Shown here: positions 9,801 through 30,766 of the stretch, in pieces | Layout: every line of letters begins with the position of its first letter | Position numbering within the stretch: position 1 is the first letter of the stretch | Source: Ectothiorhodospiraceae bacterium | GTDB lineage: Bacteria > Pseudomonadota > Gammaproteobacteria > Nitrococcales > Halorhodospiraceae | Direction of reading: 5' to 3' | Assembly: GCA_003552625.1 (NCBI GenBank) | Contig: PUNM01000123.1 | Span: 1 to 33,540 of the forward strand | DNA length: 33,540 bases | The notes under the pieces: model-generated | Databases searched by the model: none | Told to the model about the DNA's origin: nothing | What the model saw: the letters and a program-made list of their open reading frames with translations, nothing else | Translations under genes and position numbers: made by a program

Positions 9801-10487
9801 ATGAGCGATCGCTACACTGACAGCCGCGTGCTGACCGGCGAAGAGCGTTCTGCCCAGAATGCACGGGCGCTGGCCACCAACCGGCTGATTCGCAACACTT
9901 ATCTCCTGCTGTCGCTGACCCTGGCGTTCAGCGCGGCTACCGCCGGCTTTGCGGTACTCTCCGACGCCCCGCGGCTCAATATCTTCGTCGTCCTGGGCGG
10001 CTTCTTCGGCCTGCTCTTCCTGACGCAGTACCTGCGCAACAGTGTCTGGGGGCTGGCCTCGGTCTTTGCTCTTACCGGCTTCATGGGCTACACGCTGGGC
10101 CCGATCATTAATCTCTACCTGGGGCTGCCCAACGGCGGACAAACGGTGATGACCGCCTTCGGCGGTACCGCTGCGATCTTTATCGGCCTCTCCGCCTACG
10201 CGTTGGCCAGCCGCCGCGATTTCAGCTTCATGCGCGGCTTCCTGTTCGCGGGCATCCTGGTGGGCTTCGTGGCCGCGCTCGCCGCCTACTTCCTGCAGAT
10301 GCCGGGCCTGTCGCTAGCGGTCAGCGTCATGTTCATGATCCTCATGAGCGGGCTGATCCTCTACCAGACCAGCGAGATGGTGAACGGCGGCGAGGACAAC
10401 TACATCATGGCCACCGTCACCCTCTACGTTGCGCTCTACAACCTCTTCACCAGCCTGCTCCATCTCCTCGGGCTGGCTAACGAGTAA
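9801..10487 (+). CDS. Bax inhibitor-1/YccA family membrane protein
   Basis: A 228-residue inner-membrane protein with about seven hydrophobic segments starting near residue 30, of the Bax-inhibitor-1 fold. The E. coli relative YccA binds and restrains the membrane protease FtsH; other members act as pH-sensitive calcium leak channels. The C-terminal end TLYVALYNLFTSLLHLLG is the family signature region; the preceding IYQTSEM-like stretch (here ILYQTSEMVNGGEDNYI) carries the conserved acidic residues. The ATG at 9801 follows AAGGAGG with a strong ribosome site. It is followed by a GC-rich hairpin (10501-10526) and cysB. It is probably a YccA homologue, but BI-1 subtypes are hard to separate by eye. 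Confidence 0.9.
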   Translation: MSDRYTDSRVLTGEERSAQNARALATNRLIRNTYLLLSLTLAFSAATAGFAVLSDAPRLNIFVVLGGFFGLLFLTQYLRNSVWGLASVFALTGFMGYTLGPIINLYLGLPNGGQTVMTAFGGTAAIFIGLSAYALASRRDFSFMRGFLFAGILVGFVAALAAYFLQMPGLSLAVSVMFMILMSGLILYQTSEMVNGGEDNYIMATVTLYVALYNLFTSLLHLLGLANE

Positions 10488-10500
10488 GTCCGGGGCACCC

Positions 10501-10526
10501 GGTGGGGGCCGAATCGGCCCCCCACC
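10501..10526 (+). terminator. GC-rich hairpin between the BI-1 gene and cysB
   Basis: GGTGGGGGCCGA pairs with TCGGCCCCCCACC around a one- to three-base turn, with one bulged C. The stem is long and very stable, but no U-run follows (CTGTCC), so it may be a weak terminator or an mRNA 3'-end stabiliser, or part of the cysB leader. Confidence 0.5.
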
Positions 10527-10557
10527 CTGTCCAGCCCGCAAGAGACGCACACCCCCG

Positions 10558-11538
10558 ATGAAGCTCAATCAGTTGCGCTATATCCACGAGGTTGCCAATC
10601 GTGGCCTGAATATTTCCGCCGCTGCCGAAGCGCTCTATACCTCGCAGCCGGGCATGAGCAAGCAGATTCGCGCCCTTGAGGAAGAGCTTGGGGTAGAGAT
10701 CTTCGCGCGCAGTGGCAAGCACCTGACCCAGGTGACACCGGCCGGAGAGCAGATCCTCGAAGCGACGGCCCGACTACTGCAAGAGGCACGGAATATCCGC
10801 GCCATCGCGGACGACTTCGTCGCCGAGAACCGGGGCCATCTGTCGCTCGCCACAACCCAGACCCAGGCCCGGCACGCCCTGCCGCGGGTTGTTCAAGACT
10901 TCCGGCAGCGCTTCCCGAACGTAGCCCTGCACATGCACCAGGGCACGCCGATGCAGATCGCCGAGCTGGCCGCCCGCGGCCAGGTGGACTTCGCCATCGC
11001 GACCGAGGCCATCGAGCTTTTTGACGATCTCGTCATGCTGCCCTGCTACCGCTGGAACCGCTGCGTGGTCGTCCCCGAGGACCACCCGCTGGCTCAACAG
11101 CAGGGCCCGCTCACCCTCGCCGACCTGGCGGCCCACCCGCTGGTAACGTACGTCTTCGGCTTTACCGGACGCTCCAAACTCGACGAGGCCTTTCAAGCTG
11201 CCGAACTGGAGCCGGAGGTCGTCTTCACCGCCACGGACGCGGAGGTCATCAAGACCTACGTCGGACTGGGACTGGGGGTGGGGATCATCGCGCGGATGTC
11301 CTTTGACGCAACCCACGACCAGGGGCTGATCGCCCTGGACGCCAGCCACCTCTTCGAACCCAGCGTGACCAATATCGGGTTCCGACGCGGGACCCACCTG
11401 CGCGGGTACATGCTGGAGTTCATCGAACTCTTTGCGCCCCACTTGACGCCGGAGGTCGTCGATCGTGCGCTGCAGGCGCGCTCACCCGATGAGCGGGCAC
11501 GGTTGCAGCAGGAGCTGGAAGCGGCGATGGCCGGATAG
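10558..11538 (+). CDS. cysB: LysR-type transcriptional regulator CysB
   Basis: Regulator of sulfate assimilation and cysteine synthesis; in enterics it needs N-acetylserine or O-acetylserine to activate. At 326 residues it matches E. coli CysB (324) nearly end to end. Seen: N-terminal winged helix-turn-helix with SAAAEALYTSQPGMSKQIR near residues 19-37, IFARSGKHLTQVTPAG, and the ligand-binding domain with TTQTQARHALP, LHMHQGTP, LVTYVFGFTGRS and FTATDAEVIKTYVGLG, all CysB hallmarks. The start ATG 10558 gives the canonical MKLNQLRYI. It lies 70 bases downstream of the BI-1 gene, with a hairpin between, and its stop faces serS ten bases away. Autoregulation is usual in the family, but no site is identified here. 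Confidence 0.97.
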   Translation: MKLNQLRYIHEVANRGLNISAAAEALYTSQPGMSKQIRALEEELGVEIFARSGKHLTQVTPAGEQILEATARLLQEARNIRAIADDFVAENRGHLSLATTQTQARHALPRVVQDFRQRFPNVALHMHQGTPMQIAELAARGQVDFAIATEAIELFDDLVMLPCYRWNRCVVVPEDHPLAQQQGPLTLADLAAHPLVTYVFGFTGRSKLDEAFQAAELEPEVVFTATDAEVIKTYVGLGLGVGIIARMSFDATHDQGLIALDASHLFEPSVTNIGFRRGTHLRGYMLEFIELFAPHLTPEVVDRALQARSPDERARLQQELEAAMAG

Positions 11539-20725: not shown

Positions 20726-22996
20726 TCAGGCACCCTCAGTGTCCCGCTCACGGACGTGGATGGCTAGCTCGCCATCCTCCACCGTGACCTCGACCTCGCC
20801 GCCGCCAGTCAGGTCTCCAAACAGCAATTGCTCCGCGAGGGGCTTCTTGATGTGCTGCTGGATCACACGCCCCATCGGTCGCGCACCCATCTGCGGGTCG
20901 TAACCCTTCTCGCCGATCCAGCGCCGCGCATCGCCATCCACGACCAGAGTGACGCGCTTTTCGGCCAGCTGCACGGACAGCTCCCGGATGAACTTGTCCA
21001 CCACGCGCTGCACCGTATCCTGGTCCAGCGGCTGGAACTGCACCACGGCATCGATCCGGTTGCGGAACTCCGGCGTAAAGGTGCGACGGATCGCTTCCAT
21101 GCTGTCCTGGACGCTGCTCTCCGTCGTAAACCCGATCGAGCGCTTGCTCATCTCCTCCGCACCCGCATTGGTGGTCATCACCAGCACGACGTTGCGGAAA
21201 TCCGCCTCCCTTCCGTTGTTATCGGTCAGGGTGCCGTGGTCCATGACCTGGAGCAGGAGATTGAACACATCCGGGTGCGCCTTCTCGATCTCGTCGAGCA
21301 GCACCACGGAGTGCGGATGCTTGATCACCTCCTCGGTGAGCAGCCCGCCCTGGTCGTAGCCTACGTACCCCGGCGGCGCCCCGATAAGCCGCGAGACGGC
21401 GTGGCGCTCCATGTACTCCGACATGTCGAAGCGGATCAACGGGACCCCGGTGAGTTCAGCGAGCTGCCGGGTGACCTCGGTCTTGCCGACACCGGTGGGC
21501 CCGGCGAAGAGGAAGCTTCCCACCGGGCGATCCGGAGTGCCGAGCCCTGCGCGCGACATCTTGATCGTCGCCGCGAGGTTCTCGATCGCCTCGTCCTGGC
21601 CGAAGATCAGCCCCTTGAGTTCGCTTTCCAGATTCTCGAGGACCTTCATGTCCTGGGTCGAGACTCGCTTGGGGGGGATGCGGGCAATCTTGGCCACAAT
21701 CGACTCAATATCCGGCAATCCCACGGTCTTGCGCCGCTTCGAGCGCGGGCGCAGGCGCAGGCGCGCACCCGCCTCATCGATGACGTCGATGGCCTTGTCG
21801 GGAAGCCGCCGGTCATTGATGTACTTGGCCGAGAGTTCAGCCGCTGCCTGCAGCGCCGGCTCGGTGAAGCGAACGTTGTGGTGCTCCTCGAAGCGGCTCT
21901 TGAGCCCTTTCAGGATCTGCACGGTGTCTTCCACCGAAGGCTCGCTGACGTCGATCTTCTGGAACCGGCGGGCCAGCGCCCGGTCCTTCTCGAAGATGCT
22001 GCGGTACTCCTGATAGGTGGTCGACCCGATGCAGCGCAGTTCACCGGAGGCGAGCATCGGCTTGATCAGGTTCGAGGCATCCATGACCCCACCCGAGGCG
22101 GAACCCGCCCCGATGATGGTGTGGATCTCGTCGATGAAGAGAATCGAGCCCCGGTCTTTCTTCAACTGATGAAGCAACGCCTTGAGACGCTTCTCGAAAT
22201 CCCCGCGATACTTCGTCCCGGCGACAAGTGCCCCCAGATCGAGCGCATAGATCGTGCTCTCCTTGAGAACATCCGGCACCTCGCCATCGACGATCTGCTT
22301 GGCCAGCCCCTCGGCGATCGCGGTCTTGCCGACGCCGGCCTCACCCACGAACAGCGGGTTGTTCTTGCGCCGCCGGCAGAGCACCTGCACCGTGCGTTCG
22401 ATTTCGTAGCGACGGCCGATCAGCGGATCGATCTGCCCGGAGCGTGCACGGGAGTTGAGGTTCGTGGCGTACTGCTCAAGGGGCGAGCCGCCCTGGGCCG
22501 TCTCGGCAGCGCCCTCTTCTTCGGCCGGTCCGCTCTCTTCCTTACCCATGTCCTCCTCGCCTCCTACCGACGAGATGCCGTGGGAGATGTAGTTCACCAC
22601 GTCGAGACGGGAGATGTTCTGCTTGTGCAGGAAATAGACAGCCTGCGACTCCTGCTCGCTGAAGATGGCCACGAGGACGTTGGCCCCGGTGACCTCACGC
22701 TTACCGGAGGACTGGACATGCAGGATCGCCCGCTGCAGCACCCGCTGAAAGCCGAGCGTCGGCTGCGTCTCACGGCTGTCGTTCACCGGCAGCAGGGGCG
22801 TGGTCTCCGCCAGGAAGGCCTGCAGGTCCCGGCGCAGGCGGTCGAGGTCAGCCCCGCACGCCTTGAGGACCTGCGACGCCGCCGGATTGTCGGTCAGAGC
22901 CAGCAGTAGATGCTCCACGGTCAGGAACTCGTGGCGCTTCTCCCGGGCGTCCTTGAAGGCCAGATTGAGAGTGAACTCTAACTCTTTGCTCAGCAT
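20726..22996 (-). CDS. clpA: ATP-dependent Clp protease ATP-binding subunit ClpA
   Basis: Hexameric AAA+ unfoldase that feeds substrates, including ClpS-delivered N-degron proteins, into ClpP. 756 residues, matching E. coli ClpA (758). N-terminal Clp repeat domain (about 1-140), an acidic linker (about 145-170), the first AAA+ module with [14 protein letters not shown] near 217-230, [11 protein letters not shown], and the second module with [47 protein letters not shown] and [13 protein letters not shown] 22996 is preferred over ATG 23002 because GAGG lies nine bases upstream of it, against only three for the other. It is 82 bases downstream of clpS on the same strand. Confidence 0.97.
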
Positions 22997-23078
22997 GCCC
23001 ATTTACCTCGACTGGGGCTTAACCGGAGACCACCGCTTGATTGGACCGGACCGGAGGCGCCGCGGTTCCTGGAACCCT

Positions 23079-23402
23079 TCAAGCTTCTTCCATCGTACAC
23101 AGTAATGGATGTTCGTGCTCCCGTGCGTAGTCGTTGACCTGCGAGACCTTGGTCTCGGCGATGTCGCGGCTGTAGACGCCGCAGACCCCCTTACCACGAG
23201 TATGGACGTGAAGCATGATCTGCGTTGCCTGACTGCGGTCCTTATTGAAAAACCGCTGGAGGACCTCGACGACAAAATCCATCGGCGTGTAGTCGTCGTT
23301 GAGCAGTACGACCTTGTACAGGGGCGGCCGCTTCAGCGACGGCTTGGCCGCTTCGACGTCGGGCCCCTGGGGCTCGTCTTCCTTGTGCGGTTCGTCGGTC
23401 AT
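23079..23402 (-). CDS. clpS: ClpS adaptor protein
   Basis: Recognises N-terminal Leu, Phe, Tyr and Trp and hands such proteins to ClpA. 107 residues from ATG 23402. An unstructured acidic N-terminus (about 1-28) precedes the folded core with [16 protein letters not shown] (the Asp pair and Met of the binding pocket), [18 protein letters not shown] (pocket His) and the family ending [16 protein letters not shown] 23411 would add three residues but falls in the likely promoter start region. The gene has its own promoter (23414-23443) behind the isocitrate lyase terminator, so clpS-clpA form a unit. Confidence 0.95.
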
Positions 23403-23413
23403 CGCTCCCATTC

Positions 23414-23443
23414 TATATAGTGGCGGCGCACCCATCCAATCAA
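23414..23443 (-). promoter_or_regulatory. Promoter for clpS-clpA
   Basis: On the minus strand TTGATT (23443-23438) and TATATA (23419-23414) are 18 bases apart. The start point would fall near 23407, only about five bases before ATG 23402, so the mRNA would have almost no leader. Confidence 0.55.
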
Positions 23444-23470
23444 GAGATCAACCGGTACAATCCCCCCCCT

Positions 23471-23510
23471 ACCGCAAAAAGGCCCGGGGCGGCGATGCCG
23501 TCCCGGGCCC
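23471..23510 (-). terminator. Rho-independent terminator of isocitrate lyase gene
   Basis: Read on the minus strand, GGCCCGGG (23509-23502) pairs with CCCGGGCC (23488-23481), with an inner CGGC/GCCG helix, and TTTTT follows directly (23480-23476). This is a textbook intrinsic terminator separating the isocitrate lyase gene from clpS. Confidence 0.9.
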
Positions 23511-23538
23511 GTCGGACACTCCCTGACCGGCAAGTGCG

Positions 23539-24807
23539 CTAGAACTGCTCTTCCTCCGTCGAGCCTTTCAGCGCCGTGACCGAGGACTGCCCGCCCTGGA
23601 TGACGTTGGTCACCTGATCAAAGTAGCCGGCACCGACCTCGCGCTGGTGGCGGGTCGCCGTGTAGCCGTGCTTCTCCGCCGCAAACTCGGCCTGCTGCAG
23701 CTCCGAGTAAGCCTCCATCTGCCGCTCCTTGTAGCCGCGCGCCAGCTCGAACATCGAGTAGTTCAGCGAGTGGAAACCGGCCAGGGTGATGAACTGGAAC
23801 TTGAAGCCCATCGCACCCAGTTCGTCCTGGAAATTGCGGATGGTCTTATCGTCCAGATTCCCTGCCCAGTTGAAGGACGGCGAACAGTTATAGGCCAACA
23901 GCTTGCCCGGATACTTCTCGTGGATCGCCTGCGCGAAATCCCGAGCGAAGCCCAGATCCGGCTTGCCGGTCTCGCACCAGATGACGTCGGCGTAGGGGGC
24001 GTAGGCCAAGCCGCGGCTGATCGCTTGCTCGGCGCCGGGCTTGGTGCGGAAGAAGCCTTCGGAGGTGCGCTCACCGGTGATAAACGGCTTGTCGTTGTCG
24101 TCAACATCGGAGGTGAGCAGATCAGCCGCCTCAGCGTCGGTCCGCGCGACCAGGATCGTCGGCACATCCATGGTATCGGCCGCTAGGCGCGCGGCAATCA
24201 GCTTCTGCACCGCTTCCTGCGTGGGCAGAAGCACCTTGCCACCCATGTGGCCACACTTCTTGACCGATGCAAGCTGATCCTCGAAGTGAACCCCAGCCGC
24301 GCCGGCTCGGATCATGCCTTTCATCAGCTCGAAGGCGTTGAGCACACCGCCAAAGCCCGCCTCGGCGTCGGCGACAATGGGCTTCATGAAGTCGAACGGC
24401 TCATTGCCCTCGGCGTGATTGATTTCATCGGCACGCAGCAACGCGTTGTTAATGCGATCAACAACCGCCGGCACCGAGTTGGCCGGGTAGAGGGACTGAT
24501 CGGGATACATCGTCTGCCCGAGGTTCGCATCCGCCGCTACCTGCCACCCGGAGAGGTAGATCGCGTTGAGGCCGGCCTTGACCTGCTGCAGCGCCTGGTT
24601 GCCGGTCAGCGCGCCGAGCGCGTTGACGTACGGCATCTCGTGCATGTAGCGCCACAGCTTCTCAGCCCCTTGCCGGGCGAGGCTGTACTCAACTTCGACC
24701 GTGCCGCGCAGGCGTACCACTTCATCCGCCCCGTAGCCGCGCTGCACACCCTTCCAACGCGGGTTCTCCGCCCAGTCGCGCTCGATCGCCGCTTGATCTT
24801 TCAACAT
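23539..24807 (-). CDS. aceA: Isocitrate lyase
   Basis: First glyoxylate-bypass enzyme: splits isocitrate to succinate and glyoxylate, so acetate can be used as a carbon source. 422 residues, close to E. coli AceA (434). Seen: [49 protein letters not shown], and the catalytic-loop motif KKCGHMGGK with Cys near 185, then [24 protein letters not shown] and the C-terminal [17 protein letters not shown]. The start is ATG 24807 with GGGAGG nine bases upstream. A strong promoter at 25018-25046 suggests a leader of about 200 bases with hairpins. A LysR regulator is divergent. Malate synthase is not in the window. Confidence 0.97.
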
Positions 24808-24921
24808 TCCGTACTGCCTCCCAAATCGGGCTGGTGGTCCAGGCCACCAAGTCAACCAGTGTTTTCGTGCGTATCCTGCCGGGGCCTCCGGCCGGCGCGC
24901 GGTTGCCCTCTTGGGGCATCA

Positions 24922-24945
24922 CTCCGGGACGGGGTTATCCCGGAG
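24922..24945 (-). promoter_or_regulatory. Hairpin in isocitrate lyase leader
   Basis: CTCCGGGA (24922-24929) and TCCCGGAG (24938-24945) form an eight-base-pair stem with an eight-base loop. It lies inside the predicted long leader, about 115 bases before the start codon. There is no U-run, and its role is unknown. Confidence 0.4.
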
Positions 24946-25002
24946 CCGAGGACCACTGCCGCTACGCCGCCCGCGTCAGGCGCGGGTGTGGCGCCCTGTC
25001 GC

Positions 25003-25017
25003 CGACGACGGTCGTCG
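25003..25017. promoter_or_regulatory. Inverted repeat at the isocitrate lyase transcription start
   Basis: CGACGAC-G-GTCGTCG is a perfect 7+7 inverted repeat directly downstream of the -10 box (25018-25023), so it spans the predicted start point. It is a plausible operator; the protein that binds it is unknown. Confidence 0.4.
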
Positions 25018-25046
25018 ATAGTATGGCGCACCGCATCATTTGACAA
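25018..25046 (-). promoter_or_regulatory. Promoter for isocitrate lyase gene
   Basis: On the minus strand TTGTCA (25046-25041) and TACTAT (25023-25018) are exactly 17 bases apart, a strong sigma70-type pair. The start point would be near 25011, giving a leader of about 204 bases. The same -35 position reads TTGACA on the plus strand (25040-25045), so the divergent LysR gene may share control from this site. Confidence 0.6.
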
Positions 25047-25101
25047 GGTTGCTGAAACTATATTGCATATTGATTCCGCCAATGCCGAACACTGAGACGC
25101 C

Positions 25102-26106
25102 GTGGAAACTTTGGAAACGGAATCCCCACGCCATTACTACCGGCACAACCGCCTCAAGCAACTGCGGGCCTTCTGCCACGCGGCGCAAGAGCGAAGCATC
25201 TCGCGGGCCGCCGAGCGTCTTGAGCTCAGCCAGCCCTCCGTGAGCCTGCAGATCCAGGCCCTGGAGCGCGAACTCGGGATCACACTGTTCGAGCGGCGTG
25301 GCCCGCGAATCCGCCTCACCCCGGACGGGGAGGCTCTTTACGAAGAGGCCGCACCGCTGGTGGAGGGCATCGATGCCCTGCCCGAACGTTTCGTCGCCCG
25401 CAACCGTCGCCAGCAACTAGGCCATCTGGATATCGCCGCGGGCGAGTCGACCTCGCTCTACGTGCTGCCCGACCTGCTGCGCACCTTCATGGAGCGCCAC
25501 CCCAAGGTTCACGTACGGCTGCACAACCTGATCGGCGAGGAGCAGATCCACGCCGTCCAGCAGGACCGCGTCGACATCGCCGTCGGCTCCAGCCTCGACC
25601 TTCCGGAGGACGTGGTTTACAAGGCGACGTATACCTACGACCTCAAGCTGATCACTCCACTCGACCACCCCCTCGCCGAGAAGCCGGAGATCACCCTGGA
25701 GGATCTCGGCGCCGGGGAATTGATTCTGCCTCCCCGACAACTCACCACGTGGCGACTGGTCAATCTCGTCTTCCAGCAGCACAGCATCCCGTATCAGGTC
25801 CGCCTGGAGGTTGGGGGCTGGGAGATCATGAAACGCTATGTGGAACTCGGTTTCGGCATCGGGATCGCGAGCGCCATCTGCCTGACCGGCGGCGAACGCC
25901 TCGCGATCCGCGATCTCCCCGAGGTCTTCCCGCAGAGGACCTACGGCGTCATGCTCCGTCGCGGACGGTATCTCTCTCCCCAGGCGCGGCGCTTCCTGGA
26001 GTTGATGGACCCGCAGACCTTCGCCAACGCCGAGGAGTGGGACGCCGTCCCCGGCAGCCGGGAGAGTGTCCTCGTGCCCGGGCGGAGCGTGGAAAGCGAT
26101 CGCTGA
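25102..26106 (+). CDS. LysR-family transcriptional regulator divergent from isocitrate lyase
   Basis: 334 residues. N-terminal winged helix-turn-helix at about 18-77 with SISRAAERLELSQPSVSLQI and LFERRGPRIRLTPDG, followed by a two-lobe ligand domain with STSLYVLPDLLRTFMERHP, VDIAVGSS and VELGFGIGIASAI. It resembles the CysB/Cbl subgroup in overall pattern but lacks the CysB-specific ligand motifs of the cysB gene in this window, so its inducer is not known. The start is GTG 25102, with only a weak ribosome site. The divergent layout with the isocitrate lyase gene, sharing a 294-base control region, is the usual LysR arrangement and makes it the likely glyoxylate-bypass regulator (inference). 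The C-terminal 30 residues are a non-conserved tail. Confidence 0.92.
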   Translation: METLETESPRHYYRHNRLKQLRAFCHAAQERSISRAAERLELSQPSVSLQIQALERELGITLFERRGPRIRLTPDGEALYEEAAPLVEGIDALPERFVARNRRQQLGHLDIAAGESTSLYVLPDLLRTFMERHPKVHVRLHNLIGEEQIHAVQQDRVDIAVGSSLDLPEDVVYKATYTYDLKLITPLDHPLAEKPEITLEDLGAGELILPPRQLTTWRLVNLVFQQHSIPYQVRLEVGGWEIMKRYVELGFGIGIASAICLTGGERLAIRDLPEVFPQRTYGVMLRRGRYLSPQARRFLELMDPQTFANAEEWDAVPGSRESVLVPGRSVESDR

Positions 26107-26185
26107 CAAGCGAACCCTCTTTGGCCGCCGACGCCATGTGGTAACCTGTCGCGCTGAAACGCTGGATCTGGTTCGAGCCCCGCCC

Positions 26186-27331
26186 ATGACGAAGAACCCC
26201 GAACGCATTGTCGTCGGCCTTTCCGGCGGAGTGGACTCCGCCGTCGCCGCCCTGCGGCTGTTGCGCGCCGGCTACCGGGTCGAGGGGCTTTTCATGAAGA
26301 ACTGGGAGGACGACGACACCCTCACCCGCTGCAGCGCCGAGGACGATATTGCAGCGGCTCGTGCGGTGGCGGAACACCTCGGTATCGACCTTCACCACGT
26401 CAACTTTGCCGCCGCCTACCGCCGGGAGGTCTTCGAGCACGCGCTCGCCGAACTGCGCCAGGGGCGCACTCCCAACCCGGATATCCTCTGCAACCGCCAC
26501 ATCAAGTTTCACCGCTTCCTGAACTACGCCTTGCATCACCTGGGTGCGGACGCGGTAGCGACCGGCCATTATGCGCGGCTCGACCACCAGCCGGACGAAC
26601 CGCCGGCGCTGCTGCGGGGCGTTGACCACGGCAAGGATCAGTCGTATTTCCTCGCCGCCGTCGATCCCAGCGCACTGCACCACGTGCGCTTCCCCCTCGG
26701 TGACACCCCCAAGGACTCGGTCCGGGAGGAGGCCCGTGCCGCCGGGCTGCCGAACTTCGATCGACCCGACAGCACGGGGATCTGCTTTATCGGCGAGCGG
26801 GATTTCACCGCATTCATGCAGCGTTACATCACACCGGCTCCGGGGCCCATCATCGATGAGCACGGGGACGTCATCGGGGAGCATCAGGGGCTCGCCTTCT
26901 ACACCCTCGGCCAGCGCCGCGGCCTCGGGATCGGTGGCGCAGCAGCCCACGCTTCCGCCCCCTGGTACGTGGCTGCCAAAGACGGGGAGCGCAATGCCCT
27001 GATCGCGGTCCAGGGCCACGATCACCCCTGGCTGCAGAGCCGCAGCGTCAGCACCGAGGATTTCCACTGGCTCGCCTCGCCCCGGGAGGGGCGGCTGGAG
27101 GCCCAGGTTCGCTATCGCCAGCAACCGCAGAGCGGACGGCTGGTCGCCCAAGGGGATGGATCCGTGGCCTTCTTTTTCGATCGTCCGCAGCGGGCCGCAA
27201 CCCCTGGACAGCAACTGGTGATCTACGATCGGGACCGGTGCCTTGGGAGTGGCGTCATCGCCAGTACCGAGCCGCTCGACACGTCCGGTCTGGCGGGACA
27301 TCGGGAACAAAATTCCACGGAGGCGGTTTGA
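26186..27331 (+). CDS. mnmA: tRNA-specific 2-thiouridylase MnmA
   Basis: Places sulfur on U34 of tRNA-Lys, -Glu and -Gln, taking it from the TusE relay. 381 residues. Seen: PP-loop SGGVDS at about 13-18, GLFMKNWEDDD, TPNPDILCNRHIKF with Cys near 101, the second catalytic region STGICFIGERDF with Cys near 199 (the same spacing as E. coli MnmA), and the C-terminal beta-barrel with HQGLAFYTLGQRRGLGIGG. The start ATG 26186 gives a normal N-terminus; a weak promoter-like pair (TTTGGC and TAACCT near 26120-26147) lies upstream. The stop overlaps the hflD start by two bases. Confidence 0.96.
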   Translation: MTKNPERIVVGLSGGVDSAVAALRLLRAGYRVEGLFMKNWEDDDTLTRCSAEDDIAAARAVAEHLGIDLHHVNFAAAYRREVFEHALAELRQGRTPNPDILCNRHIKFHRFLNYALHHLGADAVATGHYARLDHQPDEPPALLRGVDHGKDQSYFLAAVDPSALHHVRFPLGDTPKDSVREEARAAGLPNFDRPDSTGICFIGERDFTAFMQRYITPAPGPIIDEHGDVIGEHQGLAFYTLGQRRGLGIGGAAAHASAPWYVAAKDGERNALIAVQGHDHPWLQSRSVSTEDFHWLASPREGRLEAQVRYRQQPQSGRLVAQGDGSVAFFFDRPQRAATPGQQLVIYDRDRCLGSGVIASTEPLDTSGLAGHREQNSTEAV

Positions 27332-27957
27332 CGAGCACGAAACACGAGGAGCAGGCGCTGACGCTGGCCGTGATCTTCCAGGCGGTGCAGTGCATCCGCG
27401 AGGTCGCTCATCACGGGGATACTGAGACGGCGCGCTACGAACCACTGATCGAAGGCCTGCTCGGCGAATACCGCGGCTCAACCGAAGAGCTCTATGGTGT
27501 AAACCGCCTGGCCCCGGGGCTGCGCCGGGTTGTCGAGCAACTGGAGAACCCACAGGAGCCCGACACCACGCGCTACGTCGCCAGCATCCTCCACCTTGAG
27601 CGGCGGCTGATGAAACGGCGGCCGGTCCTCGAGCAGATCGCCGAAGGCATCGAACAGGCTCGCAGCCAGGTGGACTACTTCGGCGCCTCGACCCACACCA
27701 GTGTCATTCGCAGTATTGGCGACCTCTACAGCCAGACGATCAGCGAGATGGGCCCCCGTTTGATGATCCGGGGCGAGCAGCAGCACCTGGAGAATGAACG
27801 CAACGCCGCCTTGATCCGCGCCCTGCTGCTCTGTGCCATCCGCGGGGCCAGCCTCTGGCGCGACAATGGAGGCGGCCGCCTCACGCTGCTCTTTCAACGC
27901 CAGGGGATCGCCCAGGCAAGCCGCAACCTCCTCGACGCGCTACCGACAGAGGCGTGA
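27328..27957 (+). CDS. hflD: HflD-family protein
   Basis: A peripheral membrane protein with no enzyme activity known. In E. coli HflD affects lysogeny by binding phage lambda CII, and it sits next to mnmA there as well. 209 residues (E. coli 213). Mostly helical, with ALTLAVIFQAVQCIREVAHHG, LERRLMKRRP and the C-terminal ALLLCAIRGASLWRDNGGGR that is typical of the family. The TTG start at 27328 overlaps the mnmA stop and follows GGAGG by four bases, so translation is probably coupled. The next gene is acnA rather than purB as in E. coli. Confidence 0.9.
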   Translation: MTSTKHEEQALTLAVIFQAVQCIREVAHHGDTETARYEPLIEGLLGEYRGSTEELYGVNRLAPGLRRVVEQLENPQEPDTTRYVASILHLERRLMKRRPVLEQIAEGIEQARSQVDYFGASTHTSVIRSIGDLYSQTISEMGPRLMIRGEQQHLENERNAALIRALLLCAIRGASLWRDNGGGRLTLLFQRQGIAQASRNLLDALPTEA

Positions 27958-27964
27958 GGATGTA

Positions 27965-27992
27965 TTACCATGGATTTAGAAAAACATAAGAT
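27965..27992 (+). promoter_or_regulatory. Promoter-like pair before acnA
   Basis: TTACCA (27965-27970) and TAAGAT (27987-27992) are 16 bases apart in the only AT-rich stretch of this gap. The transcript would start near 28000, about 20 bases before the acnA ATG and its GGAGGG ribosome site. Confidence 0.45.
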
Positions 27993-28021
27993 ACGCTGAT
28001 CGCAACACGACCGGAGGGACC

Positions 28022-30766
28022 ATGACGGACAGCTTCAACTCCCGGAGCACCCTGCAGGCCGGGGACACAAACTACGAGATCTTCAGTCTCGATGGACCGC
28101 GGCGCGAGTATGATGTCGATCGCCTGCCCTACTCCCTGAAGATCCTGCTCGAGAATCTGCTGCGTACCGAGGACGGCGTCAACGTCACCCGGGAGCACAT
28201 CGAAGCGGTCCTCAACTGGGACCCCAAAGCAGTCCCCAAGGATCAGATCGCCTTTACGCCGGCGCGCGTGGTACTCCAGGACTTCACCGGCGTCCCTGCG
28301 GTGGTCGATCTGGCGGCCATGCGCGATGCCATGAAAGACCTCGGGGGTGACCCGAGTAAGATCAATCCGCTCTCCCCGGCCGACTTGGTCGTCGACCACT
28401 CGGTGATGGTGGACCACTTCGGCAATCGCCAGGCGCTCAAGCTCAATACCGAGATCGAGTTCCAGCGCAACCGCGAGCGCTACGAGTTCCTGCGCTGGGG
28501 ACAGACGGCCTTCTCGAACTTCCGCGTGGTGCCGCCGGGCACCGGTATCGTTCACCAGGTCAACCTGGAATACCTGGGCCAGGTTGTGTTCCGGAACGAC
28601 GACGGCCAGACACCGCAAGCCTACCCGGACACGCTGGTTGGCACCGACTCGCACACAACCATGATCAACGGCCTCGGCATCCTCGGCTGGGGCGTCGGCG
28701 GAATCGAGGCCGAAGCAGCCATGCTCGGCCAGCCCATCAGCATGCTCGTGCCCGAGGTGGTCGGCTTTCAGCTCGAGGGCAAACTTCCCGAAGGCGCTAC
28801 GGCCACCGACCTGGTGCTTACGGTCACCGAAATGCTGCGCAAGAAGGGAGTGGTCGGGAAGTTCGTGGAGTTTTATGGCGACGGCCTGGACCACCTCCCG
28901 CTGGCGGACCGGGCGACCATCGCCAACATGGCCCCCGAATACGGCGCCACCTGCGGTATCTTCCCGATCGATCAGGAGACGCTCAATTACATGGAGCTCT
29001 CCGGCCGCGAGCCGGAGCTCATCGAACTGACCGAGAAGTACGCCAAGGCCCAGGGTATGTGGCGGGAGACCGGCGGTCGCCACGCCGAGTACTCCGACAC
29101 CCTGAGCCTCGATCTCGGCACGGTGGTACCGAGCCTCGCCGGGCCCAAGCGGCCGCAGGACCGGGTCGCACTGACCGACGCCAAGGCGAACTTCCTCAAG
29201 ACCCTCGACGAGTACCTGGAGGCTCACCATGCTCTTCCGGCTACGGCCGAGGAGTCCAACTTCGCCGACGAGGGCGGCCATACCGCCCCGGGTACGAGCA
29301 ACGCCCATGAGCGCGGCTCCGTAGAGGTCGAGATCAACGGCCGCAAGGAGCAGCTCAAGCACGGAGCCGTGGTCATCGCCGCAATCACCTCCTGCACCAA
29401 TACCTCGAACCCGGCAGTGCTCGTCGCCGCCGGCCTGCTGGCACGTAAAGCGCGGGAGCGCGGTCTCGTGCCGAAACCCTGGGTCAAGACCAGCCTTGCG
29501 CCCGGATCCCAGGTCGTTCCGGCCTATCTGGACAAGGCCGGCTTGCTCGACGATCTCGATGCCCTCGGCTTCTCCGTCGTCGCCTTCGGCTGCACCACCT
29601 GCATCGGCAACTCAGGGCCGCTGCCGGAGGCGATCTCCGAAGGCATCCGCGAAGGCGACCTGTGCGTCACTTCCGTGCTCTCGGGCAACCGGAACTTCGA
29701 GGGGCGGATCCACCAGGACGTCCGCGCCAACTATCTCGCCTCGCCGCCGCTGGTTGTCGCCTACGCGCTTGCGGGGACCATGGCTTGCGATCTCTACAAC
29801 GAGCCTCTGGGCACCGACAGCGATGGGCAGCCCGTTTACCTGAGCGACATCTGGCCGTCCCAGCACGAGATCGCAGACCTCGTCCGGGGCAACATCTCGG
29901 CGGAGATGTACCGCAAGCACTACGCCAACGTCTTTGAAGGCGATGAGACCTGGCAGGCTATCGACGTTCCGGAGGGCGAACTCTACGACTGGAGGCCCTC
30001 CACTTACGTCAAGAATCCGCCTTACTTCCAGGGGATGAGCCGCCAGCCCGCGGCGCTTAACGACATCCGCGGCGCGCGCTGCCTGGTCTACGTGGGTGAC
30101 TCGATTACCACCGACCATATCTCCCCTGCGGGGGCCATCCACCCCGAAAGCCCGGCTGGACAGTATCTCCAGGAGCAGGGCGTGGAACCGAAGGACTTCA
30201 ACTCCTACGGCTCACGCCGCGGCAACCACGAAGTCATGATACGCGGCACGTTCGCCAACGTGCGCCTGCGCAACAAGATGGCGCCGGGCACCGAAGGAGG
30301 CTGGACGACACACGTTCCGAGCGGCCAGCAGATGGCGGTCTACGACGCCTCCATGCAGTACCAGCAGTCGGGTACGCCGCTGGTGGTACTGGCAGGCAAG
30401 GAATACGGCACGGGCTCGTCCCGCGATTGGGCGGCGAAGGGGACGAACCTCCTGGGGATCAAGGCGGTCATCGCCGAAAGTTACGAGCGCATCCACCGCT
30501 CCAACCTGGTCGGCTTCGGTGTCCTGCCGTTGCAATTCCGCGACGGCGAGAACGCCGAAAACCTCGGGTTGACCGGTCACGAGGCCTTCGACGTCATTGG
30601 AATCACCGAGCAACCGGAACAGGTGGACGTTATCGCCCGCCGGGATGATGGGGCCGAAGTGCGCTTCAAAGCTCGTGTCCGGGTTGATACCCCGCAGGAG
30701 TGGGCCTATTACCGGCACGGCAGCATCCTGCACTACGTGCTGCGGACCCTGGCGAGAACAGCCTGA
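28022..30766 (+). CDS. acnA: Aconitate hydratase AcnA
   Basis: Citrate to isocitrate isomerase of the citric acid and glyoxylate cycles, with a [4Fe-4S] cluster. 914 residues, the AcnA/IRP1 type. The cluster ligands are Cys458 ([10 protein letters not shown]), Cys524 and Cys527 ([13 protein letters not shown]), with the same spacing as E. coli AcnA. Other motifs: [36 protein letters not shown] and, in the mobile C-terminal domain, [16 protein letters not shown] and [19 protein letters not shown]. An acidic insert near residues 403-432 ([12 protein letters not shown]) is variable in the family. The ATG at 28022 follows GGAGGG. It supplies isocitrate to the isocitrate lyase encoded 3 kb away. 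A hairpin lies 16 bases after the stop. Confidence 0.98.

Follow-up and report, generated by a model that had tools for sequence, protein, structure and literature searches.

Isocitrate lyase lets bacteria grow on acetate. In the accessible text of one source (PMC9755347), accounts of how the glyoxylate bypass is controlled deal mainly with the IclR, RccR and RamA/RamB systems: Escherichia coli aceBAK is under IclR, a repressor, and RccR of Pseudomonas fluorescens and RamB/RamA of Corynebacterium are aceA regulators that are not of the IclR type. Shewanella aceBA provides an example of multi-input bypass control in a gammaproteobacterium, with LiuR, TyrR, HexR, PdhR and PsrA as predicted regulators; no LysR protein is among these five in the available part of the source (PMC3223726).

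Three LysR regulators resemble the one reported here by description, as given in the accessible portions of the respective papers. RipR of Salmonella binds isocitrate and is linked to the glyoxylate cycle, but unlike the icl regulator it controls itaconate-degradation genes (PMC9637912). Deletion of gvmR in Burkholderia pseudomallei lowers the aceA transcript, but GvmR acts on many genes (PMC5964159). TtdR of Pseudomonas umsongensis has glyoxylate-cycle genes in its region, but it neighbors glyoxylate carboligase and has its role in ethylene glycol metabolism (PMC13357446). No description of an isocitrate lyase gene paired divergently with a LysR regulator was found in the accessible open-access literature, subscription journals lying mostly outside that search.

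Divergent pairs of a LysR regulator and its target generally show a box near -65 and negative autoregulation. The icl/lysR locus has the same gene order, a T-N11-A dyad on the regulator side and a box upstream of the target promoter. It differs from the usual LysR pairs in that the target is isocitrate lyase and in that one palindromic -35 serves both promoters. The locus may point to a little-studied mode of control of the glyoxylate bypass.

The divergent genes

The window, i.e. the whole stretch of DNA analysed (33,540 nucleotides), carries icl and lysR in divergent orientation (Table 1). The icl product is an isocitrate lyase (AceA), scoring above the curated cut-off (786.6 vs 562 bits). 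The lysR product displays both domains of a LysR-type regulator, HTH_1 (PF00126, 81.5 bits) and LysR_substrate (PF03466, 149.7 bits). The mechanical GTG start of lysR at 25102, which gives an intergenic span of 294 bp, is probably not the real start. TTG 25111 is likelier because start codons of relatives align there: in an alignment of nine loci of the family, this column reads ATG in G009 and GTG in G008 and G011.

Table 1. Positions of genes and sequence elements at the icl/lysR locus (window coordinates)
Feature	Position	Strand	Remark
icl (aceA), isocitrate lyase	23539..24807	-	ATG at 24807; NCBIfam PRK15063 786.6 bits, cut-off 562
Probable icl Shine-Dalgarno, GGGAGG on minus strand	24817..24822	-	direct sequence reading
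Hairpin in predicted icl leader	24922..24945	-	genus-level feature only
Perfect inverted repeat CGACGACGGTCGTCG	25003..25017	.	near predicted icl start
icl -10 hexamer TACTAT	25018..25023	-	
Conserved spacer and -35 block GCACCGCATCATTTGACAA (GCRNYGCANCAWTTGACAA)	25028..25046	.	sequence conservation
lysR -35 hexamer TTGACA	25040..25045	+	overlaps icl -35
icl -35 hexamer TTGTCA	25041..25046	-	
Predicted LysR-regulator box	25056..25084	+	28.9 bits by matrix (own site in training set)
Weak lysR -10 candidate TTGCAT	25063..25068	+	spacing 17, 3/6 match
lysR, LysR-type regulator	25111..26106	+	likely TTG start 25111; mechanical GTG start 25102

The regulator had been called CysB-like in the earlier note. 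A remote kinship holds, CysB chains 4gwo and 1al3 being the closest solved relatives by sequence, but identity with CysB does not: the regulator gives 151.4 bits with the CysB family model (cut-off 402) and 134.5 with CysB (cut-off 436), far below both. It is not CysB, since a true CysB is encoded elsewhere in the window, by the second LysR gene at 10429-11538 (526.8 bits). In the alignment the CysB stretch TTHTQ, its effector loop, reads AGEST in the regulator. T213, W237, E238 and Y278 (TTG-started numbering) are among the positions at which at least 96% of 115 lysR orthologues agree, and CysB carries different letters at the first three of them. The Rubisco operon transcriptional regulator 5y2v, a LysR protein of a carbon pathway by name, gives a score similar to that of CysB; its sequence is distant and its target different. 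An AlphaFold model of the regulator, built from seven sequences, had a mean pLDDT of 46 and was discarded.

The earlier note also held that control here is not the enteric IclR scheme, and this agrees with the absence of the IclR_C domain from all three genomes searched in the genus (the window's own, 93.6% complete, and two single-contig genomes); the domain was detected in 8 of 14 controls. IclR-type control of icl therefore appears unlikely at this locus. IclR acting on aceBAK is likewise a case of local control of the bypass, but by a repressor of an unrelated regulator family. RccR is a HexR homologue of the RpiR family, and the RpiR-type HTH (PF01418) was not found in the three genus genomes either (8 of 14 controls positive); nor was the AceK domain. 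With IclR and RpiR domains absent from the three genomes, who controls acetate assimilation in this genus becomes a testable question.

Conservation of the pair in relatives

Of 59 genomes, 46 have a lysR orthologue (E-value = 1e-40 or better) and 45 have icl (1e-60 or better), the window's own genome included in both counts. Conservation of the divergent pair had been set as a check in the earlier note: icl and lysR are adjacent and divergent in 40 of the 41 genomes with both genes, own included. The one exception, G017, has icl and lysR near the ends of two contigs. A contig search gave six relatives: four from the Ectothiorhodospiraceae, at 70-89% identity, and two drafts of Halorhodospira sp., at 81-82%. 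A plasmid search gave only LysR proteins with less than 60% identity.

The gene order clpA-clpS-icl/lysR-mnmA-hflD-acnA (20726-30766 in the window) is retained in most of 19 loci examined. This places an aconitase gene a few kb downstream of the regulator.

Retention of a gene block around the pair could mean that icl and lysR stay together by shared descent of a stable block, with no regulatory link between them. This is very improbable in our judgement. The icl-lysR gap varies from 83 to 703 bp across loci while the promoter-box stretch is conserved, and the box is missing too in three of the four genomes without an intact lysR. Further, at loci elsewhere in the class the regulator often lies by aceB-icl or icl with no mnmA or clpA in the fetched stretch. 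Control of icl by the LysR protein is favoured instead by the conserved divergence, the conserved box and the fixed layout. The earlier proposal of a control region common to the two genes is supported.

Promoters and the common -35

The icl promoter with a -35 common to an opposite-strand TTGACA, as claimed in the earlier note, is present, and its -35/-10 block is conserved in relatives. TTGTCA-N17-TACTAT (minus strand, 25046 to 25018) and the plus-strand TTGACA form one palindromic TTGACAA/TTGTCAA, i.e. a -35 of the form TTGNCAA common to both promoters. The icl -10 of the window matches 4/6. A promoter scan of 22000-28000 gave 1 site vs 0.8 (sd 0.8) in shuffles. None of the features listed in the earlier note is clearly above chance in the window alone; it is the relatives that separate them.

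The 26 aligned loci that lie outside genus g10 all have TTGACA and TTGTCA without a mismatch, although the anchoring expression requires the CAA end of the -35, so that conservation there is partly built in. All 26 also carry an icl -10 of at least 4/6, with a spacing of 17 in 10 loci and 18 in 16 (best of three spacings, 16-18), and 15 carry a lysR -10 of at least 4/6. Genus g10 has exact -35 hexamers in 0 of 14 loci in both directions, the icl side reading TTGTGC or similar; its icl -10 reaches 4/6 in 9 of the 14 loci and its lysR -10 in one. Five lysR loci gave no anchor match: G012, G031, G039, G033 and G043. The variants of G033 (CTGACAA) and G043 (TTGACAA), missed by the anchor expression, are excluded from the counts, as is G010, where the anchor matched and the icl -10 and spacer are absent. 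The aligned loci share an indel-free stretch. From the icl -10 it runs through a spacer rich in G+C, then TTGACAA and some ten bases that vary, to a box rich in A+T with the form CAATnTTnAATATTG-N7-CAAT.

Two further elements of the earlier note fared less well. A perfect inverted repeat is indeed found at 25003-25017, the start point on which it was said to sit being itself a prediction. It is not conserved, even within the genus, and 7.2% of 1000 first-order resamplings of the region contain a repeat with 7-bp arms and a loop no longer than 1. The repeat is probably due to chance, and its role as an operator was rejected. The long leader with a hairpin is likewise present. The hairpin is seen in 7 of 9 same-genus leaders (folds judged by eye); G002 and G008, whose leaders are short, lack it. 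It holds at the level of the genus only. Among 1000 first-order resamplings, 7.5% contain a hairpin with arms of 8 bp and a loop no longer than 10.

The predicted LysR box

On the lysR side, conservation is highest in a predicted LysR box, which was absent from the earlier note. The box carries a T-N11-A dyad, ATTGATTCCGCCAAT (ATTG-N7-CAAT), at 25069-25083. Only 4 of the 7 pairs of the dyad are formed in the window, and it is not noticeable without the relatives. Between regulator and divergent target, where a dyad of the LysR type is expected, it is conserved in relatives.

With an icl start predicted 7 bp past the -10, the center of the box (25076) falls 65 bp upstream of it. A position of about -65 is the usual one for the recognition site of LysR activators. 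The candidate lysR -10 falls within the box as well. The dyad expression matched at a single offset from the icl promoter in 29 of 40 aligned loci and had no match anywhere in the other 11.

The box pattern, with 2 mismatches allowed, has one match in the window's own genome and none for the reversed control; a genome-wide box regulon was rejected, the single match being at the icl/lysR locus itself. A search of 27 genomes yielded 22 matches, 18 at the icl/lysR locus and 4 elsewhere, each of these four with 2 mismatches; the reversed control yielded 1. Seven of the 27 genomes show no match, among them G001, G005 and G022, which bear the cassette. A matrix trained on 26 loci of the order found no site of 8 bits or more in 6 kb at the malate synthase G gene of the own genome. 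The box is the putative binding site of the LysR protein. FinR was considered as the family of the regulator and rejected, its site as given in the accessible text of PMC5302815 being dissimilar to the box.

It is probable, though well short of certain, that lysR encodes a local activator of icl that represses itself. A LysR tetramer would occupy the box, with one dimer at the ATTG-N7-CAAT dyad, at about -65 of icl, and the second on an ATATTG repeat on the side of the -35. Once activated by a bound metabolite, it would help RNA polymerase to start at the weak icl promoter TTGTCA-17-TACTAT. Since the box overlaps the likely lysR -10, lysR may limit its own synthesis, and the one palindromic -35 for icl and lysR suggests that only one polymerase could be accommodated at a time. 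The common -35 would make the locus a clean case for polymerase competition between divergent promoters. The signal would probably be a metabolite of the isocitrate/glyoxylate node, because the neighbor genes point there and an isocitrate-binding LysR protein, RipR, is known; isocitrate is a first guess.

A conserved spacer block

The spacer between -35 and -10 of a sigma-70 promoter needs no sequence conservation of the kind seen here. The block GCRNYGCANCAWTTGACAA is exact at the locus in 18 of the 22 genomes of the order searched and has one mismatch in G003; it is not found at the locus in G010, G012 and G031. It is exact as well at the lysR locus of 5 genomes of the class. The icl/lysR locus is the only match in the own genome, and no exact match outside the locus was found in 28 genomes. 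With 1 or 2 mismatches there are 42 matches elsewhere vs 11 for the reversed control, so further, looser sites may exist.

One reading is that the block is a second operator; another, that it is a second contact of the LysR tetramer. The latter is disfavored because the block survives in relatives that lack lysR (G002, exact; G003, one mismatch).

Natural losses and rearrangements

An intact lysR is missing from four genomes, G002, G003, G053 and G049, and the icl frame is open in all four. G002 and G003 belong to the genus of the window and have icl but no lysR, either at the locus or genome-wide at E-value = 1e-40. In G053, of another genus, most of lysR is gone together with the box. The box is lost with lysR in these three genomes (best scores -4.2, -1.4 and -0.9 for G002, G003 and G053); G002 retains the promoter block, and G003 and G053 retain it with one -35 change. 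G049, of the same genus as G053, keeps the box (18.9) beside a C-terminal lysR remnant. The loci of G049 and G053 (L089 and L090) both show lysR as C-terminal remnants, and only that of G049 still has the box.

Other genomes have exchanged one partner of the pair. In G013 the divergent slot is filled by an isocitrate lyase of another subfamily, with promoter and box kept (score 26.7, the site being in the training set). G014, G020 and G023 have the second isocitrate lyase subfamily in the slot, without lysR and without the box. In G010, lysR has no adjacent icl; the ATTG-N7-CAAT dyad is kept with a matrix score of 4.2, and the icl -10 and spacer are absent. In G012, G031 and G039 there is no cassette and lysR adjoins a RibA-like gene, which we take to be of the GTP cyclohydrolase II type; best scores are -10.4, -12.9 and 4.5, with a weak dyad at lysR in G039. 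The other isocitrate lyase of these three genomes and of G010 shows no box of 8 bits or more in the fetched stretches. On these sequences, box and regulator tend to come and go together; the exceptions are G049 (box kept, lysR a remnant) vs G012, G031 and G039 (lysR kept).

The second isocitrate lyase subfamily (557 aa, about 30% identical) occupies the chromosomal AceA slot at L093 (8918-10588) and L221-L223, and occurs there with or without the regulator. The RibA-like gene is codirectional with lysR and upstream of it where icl is missing (L092, L094, L095).

Because icl stays open in the four genomes without an intact lysR, the regulator is dispensable and could be a repressor, blocking icl at the box and the common -35 until a metabolite releases it. 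The four genomes keep most of the core promoter together with icl, which is easiest to understand if loss of the regulator leaves icl on, and the -10 hexamers of G002 and G003 are near consensus (TAGAAT and TAAAAT). We regard repression of icl as unlikely, however. With its center near -65, some distance from the start of icl, the box has the layout of LysR activators, and a 4/6 match like that of the window's icl -10 is expected where a promoter depends on activation. In G003, the better -10 may just as well compensate for loss of the activator. Activation by the LysR protein with repression of its own gene is thus still preferred. For the question of how acetate assimilation is controlled, the locus offers a candidate operator, a candidate regulator and natural deletion lines.

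Distribution in the Gammaproteobacteria

A lysR orthologue (E-value = 1e-70 or better) is found in 72 of 369 genomes of the class, the own genome, G013 and G015 included. Glyoxylate-bypass genes (aceA, aceB, glcB or the second isocitrate lyase) are neighbors in 39 of the 69 other loci. The upstream neighbor is aceB or aceB-icl in 17 loci, icl in 18, the second isocitrate lyase in 1 and glcB in 3; the remaining loci have icd (2), pps (9), an rnfB-like gene (7), or another or no neighbor (12). These labels were assigned by hand from a tblastn table, within 4.5 kb upstream. The icl neighbor of L187 is only 48% identical, and for L202, L211 and L212, counted among the 12, upstream sequence is short or missing.

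The order-trained matrix was applied upstream of lysR at 68 of the 69 class loci outside the order, one having too little sequence. It gave 15 bits or more in 25 of 68 and 8 or more in 42 of 68; the other 26 thus show no clear box by this matrix. As background, 2633 control windows give 10 and 52 at these two thresholds, and 2040 resampled upstream sequences give 4 and 138. A box of at least 12 bits is found at 4 of the 9 pps loci and 4 of the 7 rnfB-like loci. With the box in about half of these loci, the signal may extend beyond the glyoxylate bypass.

The box might serve only autoregulation of lysR, with icl under some other control, e.g. through the conserved spacer block. The spacer block is kept in the lysR-less G002 (exact) and G003 (one mismatch) and absent in G010, which has no adjacent icl. 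In G010 it is lysR that retains a dyad, and at part of the pps and rnfB-like loci lysR likewise has the box. Yet in G012 and G031, lysR is intact downstream of the RibA-like gene and the box is absent. In no aligned locus is the dyad spaced differently from the icl promoter, the 11 loci off the common offset being unmatched, and bypass genes are the neighbors in more than half of the class loci, as counted above. A box for lysR alone is accordingly a quite doubtful reading, and a box through which the LysR protein activates icl and limits its own synthesis is kept as the preferred one.

In a tree built from 115 orthologues plus two paralogues from the own genome, icl- or glcB-adjacent loci fall on early branches; its root rests on two very long outgroup branches and calls for caution. 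One nested group holds all 9 pps loci and 6 of the 7 rnfB-like loci. Tentatively, and with more doubt than confidence, the LysR family could be an ancestral switch of the bypass in many Gammaproteobacteria; in the order of the window, transcription of icl and of its activator would be mutually exclusive through one palindromic -35, with a second input through the conserved spacer.

Orthologues near a PEP synthase or RnfB-like gene are seen at L155, L157, L160, L163, L164, L166, L170, L173, L196 and L205.
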